NCBI GenBank assembly: GCA_949297765.1
Contig: CASFTV010000001.1
Coordinates: 1-64,000, forward strand
DNA: 64,000 bases
DNA from: an uncultured bacterium
Lineage (GTDB): Bacteria > Verrucomicrobiota > Lentisphaeria > Victivallales > UBA1829
Direction: 5' to 3'
The position numbers were made by a program, and so were the translations under genes. The notes below the pieces were generated by a model. The model saw only the letters and a list, made by a program, of their open reading frames with translations, did no database searches and was not told the DNA's origin. Below, piece after piece: positions 36,502 to 47,069 of this stretch. Position 1 is the first letter of the stretch. Every line of letters starts with the position of its first letter.

Positions 36502-36530
36502 TTGAAAAAAAGAGGAAGGAAGAGTAGAGT
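36502..36530 (+). promoter_or_regulatory. Promoter of the secretin-MacAB operon
   Basis: TTGAAA (36502-36507), 17 bp, TAGAGT (36525-36530), directly after the upstream terminator and 44 bases before the ATG at 36575. Confidence 0.55.
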
Positions 36531-36574
36531 TTACTGCCCGAATAAAATCATGGAAATTGGAAAGGTTTCAACGT

Positions 36575-38086
36575 ATGGTATCCGCATGCTATGCCGGAAG
36601 GTGGGTGTCTGTTTTCGCGTTCGCTGCTCTGGCAGGGTTGTCTGTACTCTGCGCACAGGAGGCGAAGAAGGCGTCCCCCGCGCAGGTTTCTGATCGTAAA
36701 ATAGAGGAAAAACGGATCGCCGCAGGATTCACCGGCCGGGGAAAGGAGGCGGTGATCCAGCGTCTGGAGGCGCTGTTCACCAACAACTCCAGACCGGTGG
36801 TGACGCCGAAACGGTATATTCCTGACAAACCGTATCTGGTGGTGACGGATGTGGAGAACGAAAACCCGGAGGCGCCGAAACGGTCGGTGATTGTTTACCG
36901 CTTCCGGTTTGTCGATGCGGATTCCGCCAAGGATGCGGTCGAAGCGGCGCTCGCGGAGAGCGGAAGCTGTGAAACTTCTCCGAATCAGAACACCATCGTG
37001 ATCAATGTGCTCCGCGACAAGGTGCCGACCATCAAGGCCACTCTGATTGCGCTGGATGTGCCTCTGCCGCAGGTCCTTGTGGAAACGCAGATCATCGAGG
37101 TCTCCAACCAGCAGGGGGAACAGCGCGACGTGAAACTGCAGTTCTCGCATTACGACGCGCACACCAATACCAACAACGTGTTCGGCTATTCGCTGGACAG
37201 TCCGACGCAGAATTCCGTAGCCGGGGAAACATCCGGTTTTGATTTCTTTCCTGTTGCACTCGGCCGTCCGGGCGGGGATACCTCCACGCTTCAGGCGGCG
37301 CTCCGCTGGCTCACGACCAGTTCCGATGCCAGAATCCTCGCCGCGCCGAACGTGATCGCCGATCTGGGAATGAAGGCCAGCATGAGTACCGGAGAGGATC
37401 TCCCGTATCAGGAGAACACCGTGACCAACAGCGCCGTTTCCCAGAGCGCAAAGTTCAAGCGGACCGGAATCAAGCTCAACATCACGCCGACTTTGATTAA
37501 CAACGATACCGTGCAGCTGGAGATCAATCCGGAAATCACCATTGCGGTGCGGTATGAGAAATTCACGATTTCCGGTTCGTCGGACGATGCGCCGGTCTAC
37601 AACAACGTTCCGGTGGTTTCCGTCCGGAACATCAAGACCCGTCTGACCGCCGCCGACGGCGAAATCATCATGCTCGGCGGACTTTATTCGAGCGAAGTTT
37701 CCGAATCCCTGCGCAAGACCCCGTTCCTCAGCGATCTTCCGCTGATCGGGGAGCTGTTTACCGCAAAGGATGCCACAACCTATGACAAGCAGCTTGTCTT
37801 TTTCATGAAGGTGCATATTCTCCGCAATCCGTATTCGGTCACGGTCGATCCGGAAGCCACGGTCAAGGAGATCAAGGAGATCGGCGACGCATATCAGAAT
37901 TCCACGGTCATTTTCGACTCCAAAGATTATCCGCGCCGCTCCTCCTCCGCGGATAAAAAAGGCTTCTGGGCGCAGTTCTTTGATTTCGAATCGGAGGAAC
38001 CCGAAGTTCCGAAGGCGAAACAGGAGGCATCGGAACCTCCGCTCTACGGTCCTCTGGCGGCTCCCGCGGAAAGAGGACGGAAATGA
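36575..38086 (+). CDS. Secretin-family outer-membrane channel protein (GspD-like)
   Basis: 503 aa. Residues 1-28 are a signal peptide (VSVFAFAALAGLSVLCAQ). A short N1-like periplasmic domain (YRFRFVDADSAKDAVEAAL, NTIVINVLRDKVPTIKATL) leads to PLPQVLVETQIIEVSNQQGE and the secretin beta domain: SDARILAAPNVIADLGMKAS, GIKLNITPTLINNDTVQLEI, EIIMLGGLYSSEVSESLRKT, PFLSDLPLIGELF. Residues after about 450 are charged and may bind a partner. ATG at 36575 has an AAAGG SD; a TTG at 36557 is less likely. No other type II secretion or type IV pilus genes are adjacent; instead it heads an ABC exporter operon. Confidence 0.88.
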   Translation: MVSACYAGRWVSVFAFAALAGLSVLCAQEAKKASPAQVSDRKIEEKRIAAGFTGRGKEAVIQRLEALFTNNSRPVVTPKRYIPDKPYLVVTDVENENPEAPKRSVIVYRFRFVDADSAKDAVEAALAESGSCETSPNQNTIVINVLRDKVPTIKATLIALDVPLPQVLVETQIIEVSNQQGEQRDVKLQFSHYDAHTNTNNVFGYSLDSPTQNSVAGETSGFDFFPVALGRPGGDTSTLQAALRWLTTSSDARILAAPNVIADLGMKASMSTGEDLPYQENTVTNSAVSQSAKFKRTGIKLNITPTLINNDTVQLEINPEITIAVRYEKFTISGSSDDAPVYNNVPVVSVRNIKTRLTAADGEIIMLGGLYSSEVSESLRKTPFLSDLPLIGELFTAKDATTYDKQLVFFMKVHILRNPYSVTVDPEATVKEIKEIGDAYQNSTVIFDSKDYPRRSSSADKKGFWAQFFDFESEEPEVPKAKQEASEPPLYGPLAAPAERGRK

Positions 38087-39597
38087 AGTTCGGATTTTCT
38101 CGGAAAAAATGGATTCTTCCGGCGGTTCTTGTGGTTGCGCTGCTTGCCGGAGCGGTCCTTGTGTTCTATCCCCGCTACGCCGCAAAGCGCAAGGCGAAAA
38201 CGGGGACGGAAACCAAGGCTCCGGACCGGATCTTCACCGCGAAAAAAGGAGATCTGATCCTGGGCGTGATGCTGACCGGAAGCGTGAATGCAAAGAAAAA
38301 GCATAAACTCGCAATGGAGGCCCCGTGGGGAACCAAACTCATCAAGGTCGTGGATGAGAACAAGGAGGTCAAGGCGGGCGAGATCGTCGCGGAGTATGAA
38401 ACCTACGATCTGCTGCTGAAGATCGACGACCTGAAAGTGAATCTGGACAACCGGAGGAAGGATCTGGAAATCGCTCTGGACGAGCTGGCGATTCTGGTCA
38501 GCTCCAACGAGGCCGACATCCGGACCGCGCGCGACAGCGTCACCGACGCCGAAGACGCATACAGCAAATACTGGCGTCTGGAAGGCCCCAGAGACCGCGA
38601 TGAACAGAAACTCAAGGTCGATGAGGCGAAAAAAGCGCTCGACGACGCCGAGGATGAACTTTCCGCCCTGGAAAGCGAGGTCTCCACGACCGTCTATTCC
38701 GACGCCGCGGAAGAGGAAAAGGCGCAGCAGAGCATCGAAACCGCCGAACAGAAACGCGATACCGCAAAGACCAAGTACAACAGCGCCATTCTGGAACGCA
38801 AGATCTTCAAACGCTACACCCAGCCGAACAAGCTCAAGGAACTGCGCAACAAACTTGCCCAGGCAAAACTCAATTTGAAAAAGACGAAGGTCCGCACGGA
38901 AGCATCGCTTGCGCAGAAGAAAAAGCAGATTTTCCAGCATGAAACGCAGATTCGCAAACTGGAGCGGGATCTGAAGAAGCATCAGTCCTATCTGCCGATG
39001 ATGACGCTGCGCGCGCCGGTTTCAGGAATTGTCATGTACGGCGATCCCGACCGCCGCTGGGGAAATCCCGAGGTCAAGGTCGGAATGGACGCCCGCCGCA
39101 AACAGGTCATCATCACCATTCCGGATATGAGCAAGATGATTGTCGATGTGAATCTTCCGGAGCAGTACCGGTCCAAGGTTTCGGTCGGTGATCCGGTCAT
39201 CATCACGCCGGACTCCATTCAGACCATCAAGATCAAGGGGAAGATCGACCGTATCGCCCAGCTGCCGGTGAATCTGATTCCCTGGGATCAGAACAGTCCG
39301 AAAATTTACCGGACGATCGTGGATTTTTCCGGGAGGGATTCCCGGATCGTCAGCGGAATGAGCGTGCAGGTGGAGGTCGTCTCGCGGATTCTGCACGATG
39401 TCCTCTTCATTCCGATCGAGGCGGTGTTCGAGGAAAACGGAAAACTGCTGGTCTACCGGAAAGCGCTTTCCGGACCGGAGAAGGTCTTCATCAGGATCGG
39501 GCAGGCCAACAACAACTATGTCGAGATCGTCGAAGGGCTTTCCGAAGGCGACGACGTGTATCTTTACCGTCCTTTCCAGGGCGGCAGCAAGATCTGA
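38083..39597 (+). CDS. HlyD/MacA-family periplasmic adaptor
   Basis: 504 aa. One N-terminal membrane anchor (WILPAVLVVALLAGAVLVFY). Then a lipoyl-like half (LILGVMLTGSVNAKKKH; EVKAGEIVAEYETYDLLLKI), a very long coiled coil of about 200 residues (roughly 115-315; rich in E/K/A heptads), the second lipoyl half (LRAPVSGIVMYGDPDRRWGN) and a beta-barrel (MIVDVNLPEQYRSKVSVGDP). The coiled coil is longer than in E. coli MacA. ATGA overlap with the secretin gene means coupled translation. Its job is presumably to link the MacB-like pump to an outer-membrane channel. Confidence 0.88.
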   Translation: MKFGFSRKKWILPAVLVVALLAGAVLVFYPRYAAKRKAKTGTETKAPDRIFTAKKGDLILGVMLTGSVNAKKKHKLAMEAPWGTKLIKVVDENKEVKAGEIVAEYETYDLLLKIDDLKVNLDNRRKDLEIALDELAILVSSNEADIRTARDSVTDAEDAYSKYWRLEGPRDRDEQKLKVDEAKKALDDAEDELSALESEVSTTVYSDAAEEEKAQQSIETAEQKRDTAKTKYNSAILERKIFKRYTQPNKLKELRNKLAQAKLNLKKTKVRTEASLAQKKKQIFQHETQIRKLERDLKKHQSYLPMMTLRAPVSGIVMYGDPDRRWGNPEVKVGMDARRKQVIITIPDMSKMIVDVNLPEQYRSKVSVGDPVIITPDSIQTIKIKGKIDRIAQLPVNLIPWDQNSPKIYRTIVDFSGRDSRIVSGMSVQVEVVSRILHDVLFIPIEAVFEENGKLLVYRKALSGPEKVFIRIGQANNNYVEIVEGLSEGDDVYLYRPFQGGSKI

Positions 39598-39613
39598 CGG
39601 AGCGGAAGTAATC

Positions 39614-40345
39614 ATGGCCGGCGCCCGGGAACGAAAAGAGGCTCTTCATCTTGCCGATATCCGCAAAACCTACTATACGGAGACGGTCGAGGTCCCTGTG
39701 CTCAAAGGGGTCAACTACGACGTCTGGCGGGGGGAGTTCATCGGCATCATGGGATCGTCCGGATCGGGAAAATCGACGATGCTGAACATCCTCGGCCTGC
39801 TGGACAAGCCCACGGGCGGGGAGTACCGTCTTGACGGTCTCAATGTCGCGGAAATGAGCGACTTTGAACTTACGCGTGTCCGCAATGTCAAGATCGGTTT
39901 TGTGTTTCAGGCGTTCAATCTGTTTCCGCATCTCACGGTGCAGGAGAATATCGAGGTGCCGATGCTCTATGCGGAGGTCCCGGCGAAGAAGCGGCACGAG
40001 GTCTCCGCCTACATGGCGGAACGGGTGAAGCTCGCGCATCGACTGAACCACAGACCGACGCAGCTTTCGGGCGGAGAGTGTCAGAGAGTCGCTGTGGCGC
40101 GTTCGCTCGTGAACAATCCGACCTTCATTCTCGCCGATGAACCGACCGGAAATCTGGATGAGAAAACCGGCGCTGAAATCATGAATCTGTTTCATGAACT
40201 TCATGATGCCGGTACCACGATTGTCATGGTGACGCACAATCCCTATTATGAATCGCATTATGACCGCGTGATCTATCTGCGCAACGGAATGGTCTGGAAG
40301 ATCATCGACAATATTGCCGGATCCACACAGGAGTTCCCGACATGA
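39614..40345 (+). CDS. ABC transporter ATP-binding protein (MacB/LolD type)
   Basis: 243 aa. Walker A GIMGSSGSGKSTMLNILGLL, Q loop VFQAFNLFPHLTVQENIEVP, signature PTQLSGGECQRVAVARSLV, Walker B PTFILADEPTGNLDEKTG, and H loop VMVTHNP. Unlike MacB of E. coli, the ATPase and permease are separate polypeptides. ATG at 39614 begins the ATPase; 16 bases after the adaptor stop. It overlaps the permease by ATGA. Confidence 0.93.
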   Translation: MAGARERKEALHLADIRKTYYTETVEVPVLKGVNYDVWRGEFIGIMGSSGSGKSTMLNILGLLDKPTGGEYRLDGLNVAEMSDFELTRVRNVKIGFVFQAFNLFPHLTVQENIEVPMLYAEVPAKKRHEVSAYMAERVKLAHRLNHRPTQLSGGECQRVAVARSLVNNPTFILADEPTGNLDEKTGAEIMNLFHELHDAGTTIVMVTHNPYYESHYDRVIYLRNGMVWKIIDNIAGSTQEFPT

Positions 40346-41607
40346 AACTCCACGATCAGCTCTGGCTCTCCTTTCACAATCTGATGCTGCACAAAGTGCG
40401 TTCGATTCTGACCTCGCTGGGCATCATTTTCGGTGTCGGAAGCGTGATCGCGATGCTGGCGATTTCCGAGGGCGCAAAGATTCAGGCGCTCGCGCAGATC
40501 GAAGCGATGGGAACCGACAAGATCATCGTTTCGACCCGCAAGCCGCCCACTTCCGGCAAGGATGTCTCCGATTCCTCCGGAAACAGCATGATGGAGCGCT
40601 ACGGGATCACCATCGCCGATCTCGACCACATCCGGAAAATGGACAATGTGGAGGAGGTCGCCGTGGCGAGAAACTCCCGGAAGAAGATCCTCAGCGGAAT
40701 GAAGCGCCTTGATCTTTCCCTGGTCGGCGTTTCCATCGACTTCATGGAATTCAGCCGTTCCCAGCTCGTGCAGGGGCGATGGCTTTCCTCCATCGACGGA
40801 ATCACGAACAATTGCGTGATCGGGTCCAACGTCAAGCGGCAGCTCTTTTCGCTCGGCGAGCAGAATGTGATCGGAAGCACGATCATGGTGGAGCGCGATA
40901 TTTTCCGCGTGGTCGGTATCGTTGAAAATCTCCATGGAACTCATATTCCCGGTATCGGAAGTCCCAACGACTGTATTTTTATTACGATCATGGCTTCGGA
41001 TTCCATCTACGGGAAAAAATCCTATGAGACCAGCAACCGGAATCCCAGTGTGGAAGATGTCGATTTTGATACCTTCATCATCCGTGTCCGGGATGTCAGC
41101 TATATCGACTTCACCTCAAAACGAATCTCCTCCTACATGGCAAAACGGCATGCCGATACCAAGGACTGGACCATCCTCGTCCCGCTCGATCTCCTCAAGC
41201 AGCAGGAGCAGACTCAGAATATTTTTACCATCGTCATGAGTTCGATTGCGGGAATCTCCCTCCTTGTCGGCGGAATCGGGATTATGAATATTATGCTGGC
41301 GAATGTGTATGAACGCCGCAAGGAGATCGGTACCCGCCGCGCTCTCGGCGCTCAAAAGTCGGATATTATCAAGCAGTTCCTGTTTGAAACGATTTTTCTG
41401 ACCTCCATCGGCGGAAGCACCGGTGTCGCCCTCGGCGTTGTCATCGCGCTCTGCGTGACCCACTATGCCGGGATGCCGACCGCTTTTTCGCTCTGGTTTA
41501 TTCTGCTCGCTCTCCTCATCAGCGCCGTGATTGGCGTGCTTTTCGGAACTTATCCCGCATGGAAGGCCGCTCAGCAGAATCCAATTGAAGTTCTCCGCTC
41601 AGAGTAA
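40342..41607 (+). CDS. ABC transporter permease (MacB/FtsX type)
   Basis: 421 aa. MacB topology: N-terminal helix (SILTSLGIIFGVGSVIAMLA, residues about 16-40), a long periplasmic domain, then three C-terminal helices starting at SSIAGISLLVGGIGIMNIML. The cytoplasmic loop ERRKEIGTRRALGAQKSDII is the FtsX-family coupling motif. Last gene of the operon. Such mechanotransmission pumps act on substrates in the periplasm (family knowledge), which fits coupling to a secretin channel. Confidence 0.92.
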   Translation: MKLHDQLWLSFHNLMLHKVRSILTSLGIIFGVGSVIAMLAISEGAKIQALAQIEAMGTDKIIVSTRKPPTSGKDVSDSSGNSMMERYGITIADLDHIRKMDNVEEVAVARNSRKKILSGMKRLDLSLVGVSIDFMEFSRSQLVQGRWLSSIDGITNNCVIGSNVKRQLFSLGEQNVIGSTIMVERDIFRVVGIVENLHGTHIPGIGSPNDCIFITIMASDSIYGKKSYETSNRNPSVEDVDFDTFIIRVRDVSYIDFTSKRISSYMAKRHADTKDWTILVPLDLLKQQEQTQNIFTIVMSSIAGISLLVGGIGIMNIMLANVYERRKEIGTRRALGAQKSDIIKQFLFETIFLTSIGGSTGVALGVVIALCVTHYAGMPTAFSLWFILLALLISAVIGVLFGTYPAWKAAQQNPIEVLRSE

Positions 41608-41679: not shown

Positions 41680-41766
41680 CGTGCTCCGCACGACCAGCGT
41701 TTCGCCGCTGGACCGCGACAAGGACAGAGTCCTTGACCCGGGAAAAATACTTCTGTATTTTCCCCG
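41680..41766. repeat. Four consecutive hairpins before the terminator
   Basis: CGTGC/GCACG (41680-41692), CCAGCG/CGCTGG (41694-41711), CAAGGAC/GTCCTTG (41719-41735), and GGAAAAATAC paired with GTATTTTCC with one bulge (41741-41763). Each arm pair is unrelated to the next. The series resembles that at 5325-5383; both lie between convergent genes. Confidence 0.55.
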
Positions 41767-41770
41767 TAAA

Positions 41771-41806
41771 AAAACGGAGCGGAATTTTTGAATTCCGCTC
41801 CGTTTT
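41771..41806. terminator. Two-way terminator between convergent genes
   Basis: Perfect 16-bp stem AAAACGGAGCGGAATT (41771-41786) with AATTCCGCTCCGTTTT (41791-41806), 4-base loop, T-rich on plus and, by the A-run, T-rich on minus. Ends both the transporter operon and the thioredoxin-like gene. Confidence 0.9.
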
Positions 41807-43562: not shown

Positions 43563-46500
43563 TCATTTCCATTCCAGAACCAGCGGAAGCTGCTGCGTTG
43601 GATTGAGATTGAAGATCACTCCACGGCGATCCCGGTCGCGATCCAGGAAGCAGCCGTGCATGCCCTGCGGCAGGTAGGCCGCATGGGATTCGTAAATGCG
43701 TCCGTCCTCCCAGAGCAGGATTCCGTCTTTCGGGACCAGTCCGATCCAGAACGGAACCTTCAGGACCCGGAACAGCTCGGTCTGCTCCCGGGAGTTCTTC
43801 CATGAGGGCAGGCGTGCTCCGAACGCCATGGCGGTCCGCCGGGCGGTTTCGTAATCCGTCAGAACCGGAATCAGCGAGTAGTATTTTCCGTTGATCTCCT
43901 GAGCCATGGAGCGCAGTTCCGTCTTTTTTTCCTGCAGGAAGATTTCCAGAATCCGGAGGCGGCGGATCAGAAATTCTGTCGCGGGCGTCGGCGCCACCCG
44001 GGCGGAAAGACGCTGAAGCTGTTCCAGTTTCATTTCCTTGTCCTGAAAGATGAACAGTTCCTTCGGCGGTTTCAGAAAAACCGTTCCGAACGAGGTGATC
44101 CCGCTGCCCGAAACAATCAGGGTCGTCAGATTCAGCGCGTTGAGCGGATCAAGTTCGTGGATCGGATTGTCCGAACAGTTCAATGTCTCCAGTCTTGTCA
44201 GGCGGGAGAGCGGCTGAAGATCCAGAATGCTGTTCCGCGGCGCAAGCAGATGAACCAGTTCCGTGCATTCCGACAGCGCTTTCAGATCGAAAATCCGGTT
44301 GTCGCCGATGTTCAGACGGGTCAGCTTTTTCATCCGTTTCAGCGCATGCAGATCGGAAATCCGGTTCCGCATCGCATAGAGCGTCTCCAGCTCCGTCGAA
44401 TTTTCCAGCGGAAGAAGGCTTTCAATTTCATTGCATTCCACATTGAGCTTCCGCAGCGGCATTCCGCGCAGCGGCGACAGATCGGAAATCCGGTTTCCCG
44501 AAAGATTCAGTTCTGCAATCGGCTGTCCTGTCAGCGGGAGAAGATCCTCGATCCGGTTCCCCGAAAGATTCAGCTCCTTCAGCGGCATCCCGTACAGCGG
44601 CAGCAGCGAACGGATCTGATTGTACGAAGCATGGAGGGTTTGCAGCGGCATTCCGCGCAGCGGCGACAGATCGGAAATCCGGTTCCGGCTGATGTTCAGG
44701 GTCTCCAGTTTCATTCCGCCAAGTGCACTTAATGTGTCGATGCCGCAGTTGTAGAGCGTGAGATTCTTCAGTTTCATCGGCTTCAGAAAATCAATGCTGC
44801 CGAGTGGTATGTTCGTGAAGACCAGTTCGGTAAGCGGAAGCCCGGCCAGCGGGGATGGATCGGGAATCCGGCAGTCGCGCAGATGCAGCCGGTTCAGCCT
44901 CATTTCCCGGATCGGTGTGAAATCCTGCGGGGCGGCGTTGTTCAAGGTCAGGCTGCTGATGGGAATATCCTTGAGGACCGAGAGGTCCCGGACGCTCTCC
45001 CCGGAGGCGGACAGGTGGAAGCCGCCATCCTCCAGATTGAGACGGATGTTCGCATCCTTCCAGGTTTTGCGCAGAAGTGCCTCCCAGTGCGGGATCCGGT
45101 TGCGGTATTCCGTGAAGAGTTTTGCCATGCGCAGTCCGTCCGCGGCTTTCTGCCGGCGCTGGGGGGTCGAGGAGGATTCCTCCGCCTCGCGGAACAGCTC
45201 GTATGCGGCGGAAAAGTTCCCTTTGCGGAGCTGGCGTTCCGCCATGTCGAGAATATCGGCCTTGATCGGGGTTCCGAGTGTCATGATTTTCACGCTCTGC
45301 AGGTCCAGGGTGCATTTCTGGAAGGAGAAGGCGCAGGCGCTGGTCCGTCCCGGGATGGCGCTCATGCGCCGCGGTTCGGTGTAGAGCAGGACCTCTTTGC
45401 CCTGCACGCTCATTTTCAGAGTTGTCCCGCTGGATTCGGAGGTGATGATGACGTCGATTTTCCAGGCTTCGCCCGGCGGCGGATTTTCCACGCGCGCTTC
45501 CGCGAGAGTTTCCTCGTTGTGTCCGCGGTGGAGCGTCACAAACGAGTTCCGGCGCGGAATCAGGGCAAACACATAGCCGTCGCCGAATCCGGTATTGTTC
45601 AAGGTCATCAGGATGGCGGCGCCGGGCGTCTGTTCCGAAATCCGGAATTCCGACAGCATCCGGAGATCGGTTGAGGTGATCGGCTCCCGGAAGAACATTT
45701 CTATCGGAACGGAACGGGAGAAAATCCGCAGTCCGTTCCCCGTCTTTTTGACATAGCGTTCCGCCTGCTTCTGCGACAGTTCATGCCGGCGGTTCAGCAG
45801 AAATTTCCAGCGGTCGAGAATATAGGTGTCGAAGAACGAGTCCTCGTATTTGAGCTTCCATTCCCGGTAGTTTTCCCGGCGGATCCTGCTTTCGAGTCCG
45901 GTGAACGCCTTTTCCGCCGCAATGCGCGCCTGTTCAGACCGCCCGTATACCCGCTCACTGAGCGTGACCGTGTAAATGTGGAGCGCCAGAAACAGCAGAA
46001 CGATCCCGATGGTCAGCAGGATCGACGAAATCACATAGATCCGGATCCGGTTCCGTTTCAGCCAGAGCAGAAAACGCGTGGAAAGTCCTGCGTTTTCCGC
46101 AACGGTCGCAAATCCGCTCTGGTACGCCACCACGTCGTCCTTGAGCGCTCCGACGCTTTCATAGCGCCGTTCCGGATTGCGCGACATCGCCCGGAGGATG
46201 ATGAATTCCAGCGGAAGCGGAATCCGCGCTCCGTTTTCCAGCCGCGGCGGAATGATCTCTCCGTTCAGGACATTCCGGAGCACCTCTTCCATGGTCTCTC
46301 CGCGGAACGGCGGATGCAGTGTAAGGATGGTGTAGAGAATCGCTCCGAGCGCATAGATGTCGGTCTGGCGGCTCCGTTTGCTGTTTTTGCCTGCGGCCTG
46401 TTCGGGCGACATGTATTCGGGAGTTCCCCGGATGACGCCGTCCAGTGTTGCTCCGACCGGGGGACGGCGGGGGATTCTGGCGTTTTCCGCATCCGTTTCC

Positions 46501-47069
46501 CGGTCGCGGATACGCCGGGCGATTCCCCAGTCCAGCACCAGCACTTCTCCGTAGTCGCCGACCTGGATGTTGTCCGGCTTGATATCCAGATGGAGAATCC
46601 CTTTGGAGTGGGCAAACGCGATCGCATCGCATATCTTCAGAAAAATTTCCAGCCGCGCATGCAGCGGAAAGCGTTTCTGGTATTCGGGATCCTTTTCCCG
46701 CAGTTTGACCAGAATCTGCGCCAGCGTGACGCCGTGGATCAGTTTCATTGTGAAGTAGGGAACGCCGCTTTTGCTCCGGCCGATGTCATGAACCGGGACG
46801 ATGTTCGGATGTTCGAGGGAGGCGGTGATGTGAGCCTCTTCCAGAAACTGCATCTGCTTGCGTTCGGAGGCGTCCTTGGAGATGGCCATCGCGATATCCC
46901 GGCCCACGTTCACGTCTTCGGACCGCACGATGATTTTCATTCCTCCGGAGCCGATGACATGTTTGGTATGATAGCGTTCATTCGGGGAAGCCGTGAGTCT
47001 GTCGGCCGGAATTCTGTCCGTCGAGCTTCCGATGATGGCTGTTTTCTGTTCCGCTTCCCGTTCGTCCAT
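43563..47069 (-). CDS. Membrane Ser/Thr kinase with leucine-rich repeats and C-type-lectin-like tail
   Basis: 1168 aa. Residues about 33-315 form a Hanks-type kinase with HLDIKPDN (catalytic D162, N167), DWG in place of DFG (D180) and GTPEYMSPEQ. The usual VAIK lysine is replaced: the segment reads GRDIAMAIS with A62. A lysine, K45, stands in the glycine loop GSGGMK, the position used by WNK kinases. One membrane helix follows (343-367). The outside part has a LamG-like stretch, about twelve 22-residue leucine-rich repeats (LKELNLSGNRIEDLLPLTGQ pattern), and a C-terminal C-type-lectin-like fold (ARRTAMAFGARLPSWKNSRE, FWIGLVPKDGILLWEDG). Probably senses an outer ligand. Confidence 0.85.
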   Translation of the reverse strand: MDEREAEQKTAIIGSSTDRIPADRLTASPNERYHTKHVIGSGGMKIIVRSEDVNVGRDIAMAISKDASERKQMQFLEEAHITASLEHPNIVPVHDIGRSKSGVPYFTMKLIHGVTLAQILVKLREKDPEYQKRFPLHARLEIFLKICDAIAFAHSKGILHLDIKPDNIQVGDYGEVLVLDWGIARRIRDRETDAENARIPRRPPVGATLDGVIRGTPEYMSPEQAAGKNSKRSRQTDIYALGAILYTILTLHPPFRGETMEEVLRNVLNGEIIPPRLENGARIPLPLEFIILRAMSRNPERRYESVGALKDDVVAYQSGFATVAENAGLSTRFLLWLKRNRIRIYVISSILLTIGIVLLFLALHIYTVTLSERVYGRSEQARIAAEKAFTGLESRIRRENYREWKLKYEDSFFDTYILDRWKFLLNRRHELSQKQAERYVKKTGNGLRIFSRSVPIEMFFREPITSTDLRMLSEFRISEQTPGAAILMTLNNTGFGDGYVFALIPRRNSFVTLHRGHNEETLAEARVENPPPGEAWKIDVIITSESSGTTLKMSVQGKEVLLYTEPRRMSAIPGRTSACAFSFQKCTLDLQSVKIMTLGTPIKADILDMAERQLRKGNFSAAYELFREAEESSSTPQRRQKAADGLRMAKLFTEYRNRIPHWEALLRKTWKDANIRLNLEDGGFHLSASGESVRDLSVLKDIPISSLTLNNAAPQDFTPIREMRLNRLHLRDCRIPDPSPLAGLPLTELVFTNIPLGSIDFLKPMKLKNLTLYNCGIDTLSALGGMKLETLNISRNRISDLSPLRGMPLQTLHASYNQIRSLLPLYGMPLKELNLSGNRIEDLLPLTGQPIAELNLSGNRISDLSPLRGMPLRKLNVECNEIESLLPLENSTELETLYAMRNRISDLHALKRMKKLTRLNIGDNRIFDLKALSECTELVHLLAPRNSILDLQPLSRLTRLETLNCSDNPIHELDPLNALNLTTLIVSGSGITSFGTVFLKPPKELFIFQDKEMKLEQLQRLSARVAPTPATEFLIRRLRILEIFLQEKKTELRSMAQEINGKYYSLIPVLTDYETARRTAMAFGARLPSWKNSREQTELFRVLKVPFWIGLVPKDGILLWEDGRIYESHAAYLPQGMHGCFLDRDRDRRGVIFNLNPTQQLPLVLEWK

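Follow-up and report, generated by a model that had tools for sequence, protein, structure and literature searches.

The operon at positions 36575-41607 (forward strand) of the window, by which we mean the whole 64 000-nucleotide stretch of DNA that was analysed, probably specifies a tripartite exporter of the MacAB type (type VII ABC) with a secretin substituted for TolC; judging from sequence, we put the probability of this reading at about 0.85. A preliminary description of the same DNA had proposed a tripartite exporter with a secretin as its exit, and the proposal is strongly supported by a conserved gene order, by a secretin that falls outside the GspD and PilQ families and by sister cassettes in which a TolC-family gene occupies the slot of the secretin. 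Four intact reading frames make up the operon, encoding a secretin, a MacA/HlyD-like adaptor, a MacB-like ATPase and a MacB-like permease. The features are as follows.

36502-36530, + strand: promoter-like match TTGAAA-17-TAGAGT (9/12 match, candidate only).
36575-38086, + strand: gene 1, secretin, 503 aa, with a signal peptide, a KH-like N domain, a secretin domain and a charged C-terminal tail.
36833-37054, + strand: KH-like (N1/N3-type) periplasmic domain of the secretin, aa 87-160 (structure model, pLDDT about 87-95).
37310-37825, + strand: secretin barrel domain, aa 246-417 (PF00263, E 2.6e-37, and fold matches).
38083-39597, + strand: gene 2, periplasmic adaptor of the MacA/HlyD type, 504 aa, with an N-terminal membrane helix at aa 7-35.
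38404-38991, + strand: long α-hairpin of the adaptor, aa 108-303 (structure model, helices of 95 and 96 residues).
38689-38703, + strand: hairpin tip of the adaptor, aa 203-207, with the TolC-docking motif absent (model and motif comparison).
39614-40345, + strand: gene 3, ATPase of the MacB/LolD type, 243 aa, encoded apart from the permease (Pfam ABC_tran, 111.8 bits, above cut-off).
40342-41607, + strand: gene 4, MacB-like permease, 421 aa, with a MacB periplasmic core at aa 21-253 and an FtsX domain at aa 301-414.

The four genes had been described as having coupled starts. ATGA overlaps are present at two of the three junctions (38083-38086 between the secretin and adaptor genes and 40342-40345 between the ATPase and permease genes), but the adaptor and ATPase genes are separated by a gap of 16 bases. 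A promoter had also been placed ahead of the genes; a candidate does lie upstream, but promoter-type matches are no commoner in this region than expected by chance (4 found versus 2.2 ± 1.4 expected). The operon is flanked on one side by a GDSL hydrolase gene, which shares its strand, and on the other by a thioredoxin-like gene, which is on the opposite strand. Just 3' of it, at 41680-41801, is an array of five hairpins (predicted energy -54 kcal/mol, z -6.8), the 24-base core of which is found in 12 copies in the genome at ≤1 mismatch; the array is thus a dispersed intergenic repeat. Further on, at 43563-47069 on the reverse strand, a frame of 1168 aa resembles a Ser/Thr protein kinase with a membrane helix and leucine-rich repeats.

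The product of gene 1 scores 128.5 bits against PF00263 (Pfam cut-off 27.5), which places it in the secretin superfamily; the same domain is found in all 30 members of its family that were scanned, and PF03958 is matched by 18 of them. The structure model has a single KH-like domain ahead of the barrel, in agreement with the earlier account of a secretin with only a short N1-like domain, and its best fold matches are PilQ and GspD, with InvG also matched. Pfam finds the N0 domain (PF21305) neither in the operon secretin nor in any of the 30 relatives scanned. The scores against the GspD model TIGR02517 (140.9 bits, cut-off 351) and the PilQ model TIGR02515 (136.2 bits, cut-off 284) assign the protein to neither family. 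The charged C-terminal tail, once put forward as a docking part, does exist, but it is variable and is short in many family members, which leaves that role unsupported. Elsewhere in the genome of the window (L096; G000 contig 24, 14000-33900) there are two adjacent large secretins of 845 and 917 aa with TPR repeats.

The adaptor matches the Pfam families HlyD_D23 and HlyD_3, both above cut-off. MacA is its best match both in fold (MacAB-TolC structures 5nik and 9qgy) and in sequence, while its score against the NCBIfam MacA equivalog NF008606 is 36.4 bits, with a cut-off of 342. The unusually long coiled coil noticed earlier is seen in the model as two unbroken helices, aa 108-202 and 208-303, corresponding to ∼140 Å at 1.5 Å per residue. 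Between two fixed positions most secretin-linked adaptors span about 216 residues; the span between the same two positions in Escherichia coli MacA, read from the alignment, is about 106 residues. The length of the adaptor had likewise been suggested as a docking part, but TolC-linked sister adaptors (described below) span nearly as much, at 208 residues; the long hairpin is therefore a trait of the wider family rather than an adaptation to the secretin, and we rejected length as a secretin-docking feature. Four secretin-linked adaptors (L083, L084, L110 and L116) have still longer hairpins, with spans of 274 or 332 residues instead of 216, the additional residues lying in both helices of the alignment.

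The ATPase contains a Walker A motif (GSSGSGKST, aa 47-55), the signature LSGGECQR and a Walker B motif (ILADEPTGNLD). The permease scores 91.6 bits against MacB_PCD (PF12704, cut-off 27) and 86.4 against FtsX (PF02687, cut-off 25.5), and its best solved relatives are MacB structures (5lil, E 8e-44). A permease with a core domain and an FtsX domain, together with a LolD/MacB-type ATPase, places the pair in the MacB/type VII ABC superfamily. The two are separate proteins, and neither the ATPase (230.8 bits) nor the permease (192.1 bits) reaches the cut-off of 966 bits for NF007826, the equivalog for the fused MacB.

We examined conservation in 289 genomes of the phylum of the window. Secretin orthologs were taken as matches with E ≤ 3.2e-35, a threshold well separated from the next secretins, which score 87 bits, and adaptor orthologs as matches of at least 373 bits in a profile search, the next being a second adaptor family at 313 bits. 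The two ortholog sets occupy an identical set of 55 genomes. In 54 of these the adaptor gene follows the secretin gene immediately, and the four-gene order, which the preliminary description had suggested looking for in relatives, proved to be conserved: the full series of secretin, adaptor, ATPase and permease is found in 50 of the 55 carriers, the window counted. The set of genes expected of a secretin-coupled MacB-type exporter is thus present, in order, in the window and complete in 50/55 genomes of the phylum sample. Two of the exceptions are at contig ends (L017 and L047). In another, G126, the secretin (L045, G126:C150) and the adaptor (G126:C340) are on separate contigs and contain internal stops, one TAA in the secretin match and two in the adaptor match, which would be explained by decay or another genetic code. 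The last two (L086 and L088) come from related genomes and have the secretin and adaptor genes without an adjoining ATPase and permease. The genes flanking the unit vary between genomes, so that the conserved unit consists of these four genes only. Comparison of the flanks across genomes found no pilus genes belonging to the conserved unit, and no cargo gene was found among the conserved neighbours; those neighbours that recur and could be identified have housekeeping or regulatory roles. For the window itself it had been noted that no type II or type IV pilus genes accompany the secretin.

The range of the family was checked in Verrucomicrobiota, Planctomycetota and Sumerlaeota. A narrow secretin scan of a collection of species genomes gave eight loci, from Opitutae, Opitutales, Lentisphaerae, one Planctomycetota and one Sumerlaeota. 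The adaptor type occurs in just one of 40 Sumerlaeota genomes, so transfer or mis-binning is possible there. Among the Planctomycetota, the cassettes L159 and L164 have a secretin in place of the TolC-family gene; in G289 and G417 the secretin-type adaptor is unlinked, yet each genome has a secretin ortholog elsewhere, and in G532 the adaptor type is present without a clear secretin ortholog.

The comparison that carries most weight is with the second adaptor family, from Planctomycetota and other Verrucomicrobiota. It is accompanied by homologous ATPase and permease genes in the same order, and the first gene of these cassettes, i.e. the one in the slot of the secretin, encodes a TolC-family outer-membrane efflux protein (OEP). 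Among the upstream genes that were scanned, 12 exceed the Pfam cut-off for OEP; nearly all of the others are likewise identified by a local OEP profile, giving 60 TolC-linked adaptors in total. Four of the TolC-linked Planctomycetota loci (L160, L163, L199 and L209) have two or three adaptor genes in tandem. In a tree of 126 adaptors, of which 60 were labelled as secretin-linked and 60 as TolC-linked, a single branch (SH-aLRT 99) parts the two groups; one change of partner suffices, compared with about 40 when the labels are shuffled. The permease tree shows the same split by partner, and the linked secretins group in a single clade (SH-aLRT 99), distinct from the other secretins of those genomes. 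With this clean split in two trees and a single secretin clade, the outer-membrane part appears to have been exchanged once, long ago, in either direction on these unrooted trees, and the components to have been inherited together since. The low adaptor scores of L159 and L164 raised the question of an independent recruitment of a secretin, which we rejected, as both the adaptor and the secretin trees group the two loci with the secretin-linked members, although this placement is not certain owing to long branches.

The tip of the adaptor hairpin differs with the partner. MacA, AcrA and HlyD dock on TolC through a hairpin-tip motif, RxxxLxxxxxxS or T (PMC3391258). The consensus of the TolC-linked adaptors retains the leucine and the hydroxyl residue at the spacing of this RLS motif (L or M, then [FY]-x-[ST]), and a tip signature with L-x6-[ST] spacing is found in 44 of 60 TolC-linked adaptors versus one of 60 secretin-linked adaptors. 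The strict RLS motif is found in none of 61 secretin-linked adaptors, and with a secretin in the slot the operon lies outside MacAB-TolC as defined by a TolC-family duct and an RLS tip. The difference at the tip is what a loss of docking on TolC would predict; it could in part reflect ancestry, since the partner changed once on the tree.

A different possibility is that the operon encodes a normal MacAB pump that uses the orphan TolC of the genome, the secretin being a pore of independent function that only happens to lie in the operon. It had been stated that there is no TolC here; this holds for the operon, but one TolC-family gene is present elsewhere in the genome, adjoining a glutamyl-tRNA synthetase-type gene and with no adaptor beside it. 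The notion that cassette genomes are without TolC is false, as 54 of the 55 have TolC-family genes, and the absence of TolC is therefore no argument for a secretin exit. The tolC gene of E. coli is likewise unlinked to macAB. We nevertheless regard this explanation as very unlikely given the perfect co-occurrence of secretin and adaptor in 55 genomes, their adjacency across two phyla, the lack of a TolC-type tip and the fact that the sister cassettes have a TolC-family gene where the secretin gene is here. A TolC homologue paired with the pump, which the preliminary description would have taken as telling against it, was not found in this genome, where the sole TolC-family gene stands alone; its use by the pump would be formally possible.

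The adaptor and the MacB-like proteins might also serve to assemble or insert the secretin, or to extract a lipid or lipoprotein for it, with the secretin working for a type II system or pilus. Type II and type IV pilus parts do occur in the genome, and some type VII ABC systems, LolCDE and YbbAP among them, are not exporters. Six further secretin matches are found besides the operon secretin, and the one on contig 5 is GspD-like, carries both an N0 and an N1 domain and is encoded some 600 bases away from a match to a GspE-type ATPase, so that the type II/pilus machinery has a secretin of its own. The operon secretin, on the other hand, is without N0, the usual inner-membrane docking domain of secretins, and the sister cassettes hold in its slot TolC, which is an exit duct; an assembly role thus seems improbable to us. 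An accidental position of a GspD or PilQ paralog serving distant pilus or type II genes would account for GspD and PilQ being the closest curated models, but the scores fall far short of both cut-offs and the linked secretins are a separate clade. Kinship to GspD or PilQ combined with an unconserved order had been named at the outset as grounds for abandoning the exporter; the order is instead kept in 50/55 genomes, and this order and the co-occurrence in practice refute the paralog explanation, to which we give almost no weight.

For the tripartite exporter with a secretin exit, a working model can be drawn from MacAB-TolC. In MacB, ATP hydrolysis is coupled to periplasmic movements, and substrates already in the periplasm are expelled through TolC (PMC5985334). 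By analogy, the ATPase and permease of the operon would dimerise in the inner membrane, ATP hydrolysis would move the periplasmic domains of the permease and the adaptor would form a ring, probably a hexamer, giving a ∼140 Å tube across the periplasm, the tip of which may contact the short collar that the secretin ring extends into the periplasm. The same precedent underlies what the model says of assembly, stoichiometry, direction, substrate capture and gating. Secretin rings have symmetries of 12-16 and adaptor rings of 6, and this mismatch counts against the model until it is reconciled. The retention of TolC-family genes, the absence of an adjoining ATPase and permease in L086 and L088 and the absence of a clear secretin ortholog in G532 would also speak against it.

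The wide pore of a secretin allows, without proving, cargo larger than that passed by TolC. We suggest tentatively, and with more doubt than conviction, that the operon could represent a secretion system in its own right, with a MacB-type motor that pushes sizeable cargo from the periplasm (for example folded proteins, lipoproteins or polymers) out through a gated secretin with a bore far wider than that of TolC, the swap of the duct having turned an efflux-type pump into a macromolecule exporter. The exchange of ducts in one gene slot means that the outer-membrane part of tripartite ABC exporters is modular. The secretin and TolC families offer a natural comparison for the adaptor residues that choose the duct, and the family allows a test of whether an adaptor with six-fold symmetry is able to drive a secretin with 12- to 16-fold symmetry. 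Such pumps probably also serve as a route of export in Lentisphaeria, Verrucomicrobiota and Planctomycetota, which are poorly studied.

Secretins are otherwise assigned to type II and type III secretion, pili and phage export, and TolC-family ducts are treated as the defining third part of tripartite ABC exporters. The preliminary description knew of no pump of this composition, and in the open-licence PubMed Central literature we likewise came across no account of MacAB working with a secretin; two reviews, of MacB and of ABC nanomachines, are without mention of secretins. Among known systems, MacAB-TolC of Enterobacteria, of which PvdRT-OpmQ is a relative, shares with the operon the MacA-type adaptor fold, the MacB-type permease and ATPase and the clustering of the genes, and presumably also mechanotransmission and the capture of substrates in the periplasm. 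The operon differs from it in having a secretin for TolC, separate ATPase and permease genes and an adaptor hairpin about twice as long (216 versus about 106 residues) with no RLS tip. The long-hairpin TolC/OEP cassettes are closer, with homologous proteins, the same order of adaptor, ATPase and permease and a long hairpin of 208 residues, but they have a TolC-family gene in the first slot and the L-x6-[ST] tip and lie on the other side of the adaptor and permease trees. Type I secretion (HlyBD-TolC) is likewise energised by an ABC protein and has an adaptor that spans the periplasm, whereas the operon has a MacB-type permease rather than an HlyB-type exporter, and a secretin for TolC. GspD of type II secretion and PilQ of the type IV pilus share with the operon secretin the barrel and a KH-like N domain; the operon secretin has no N0 and a single N domain, scores below the cut-offs of both families and has as its partner an ABC exporter rather than a (pseudo)pilus.
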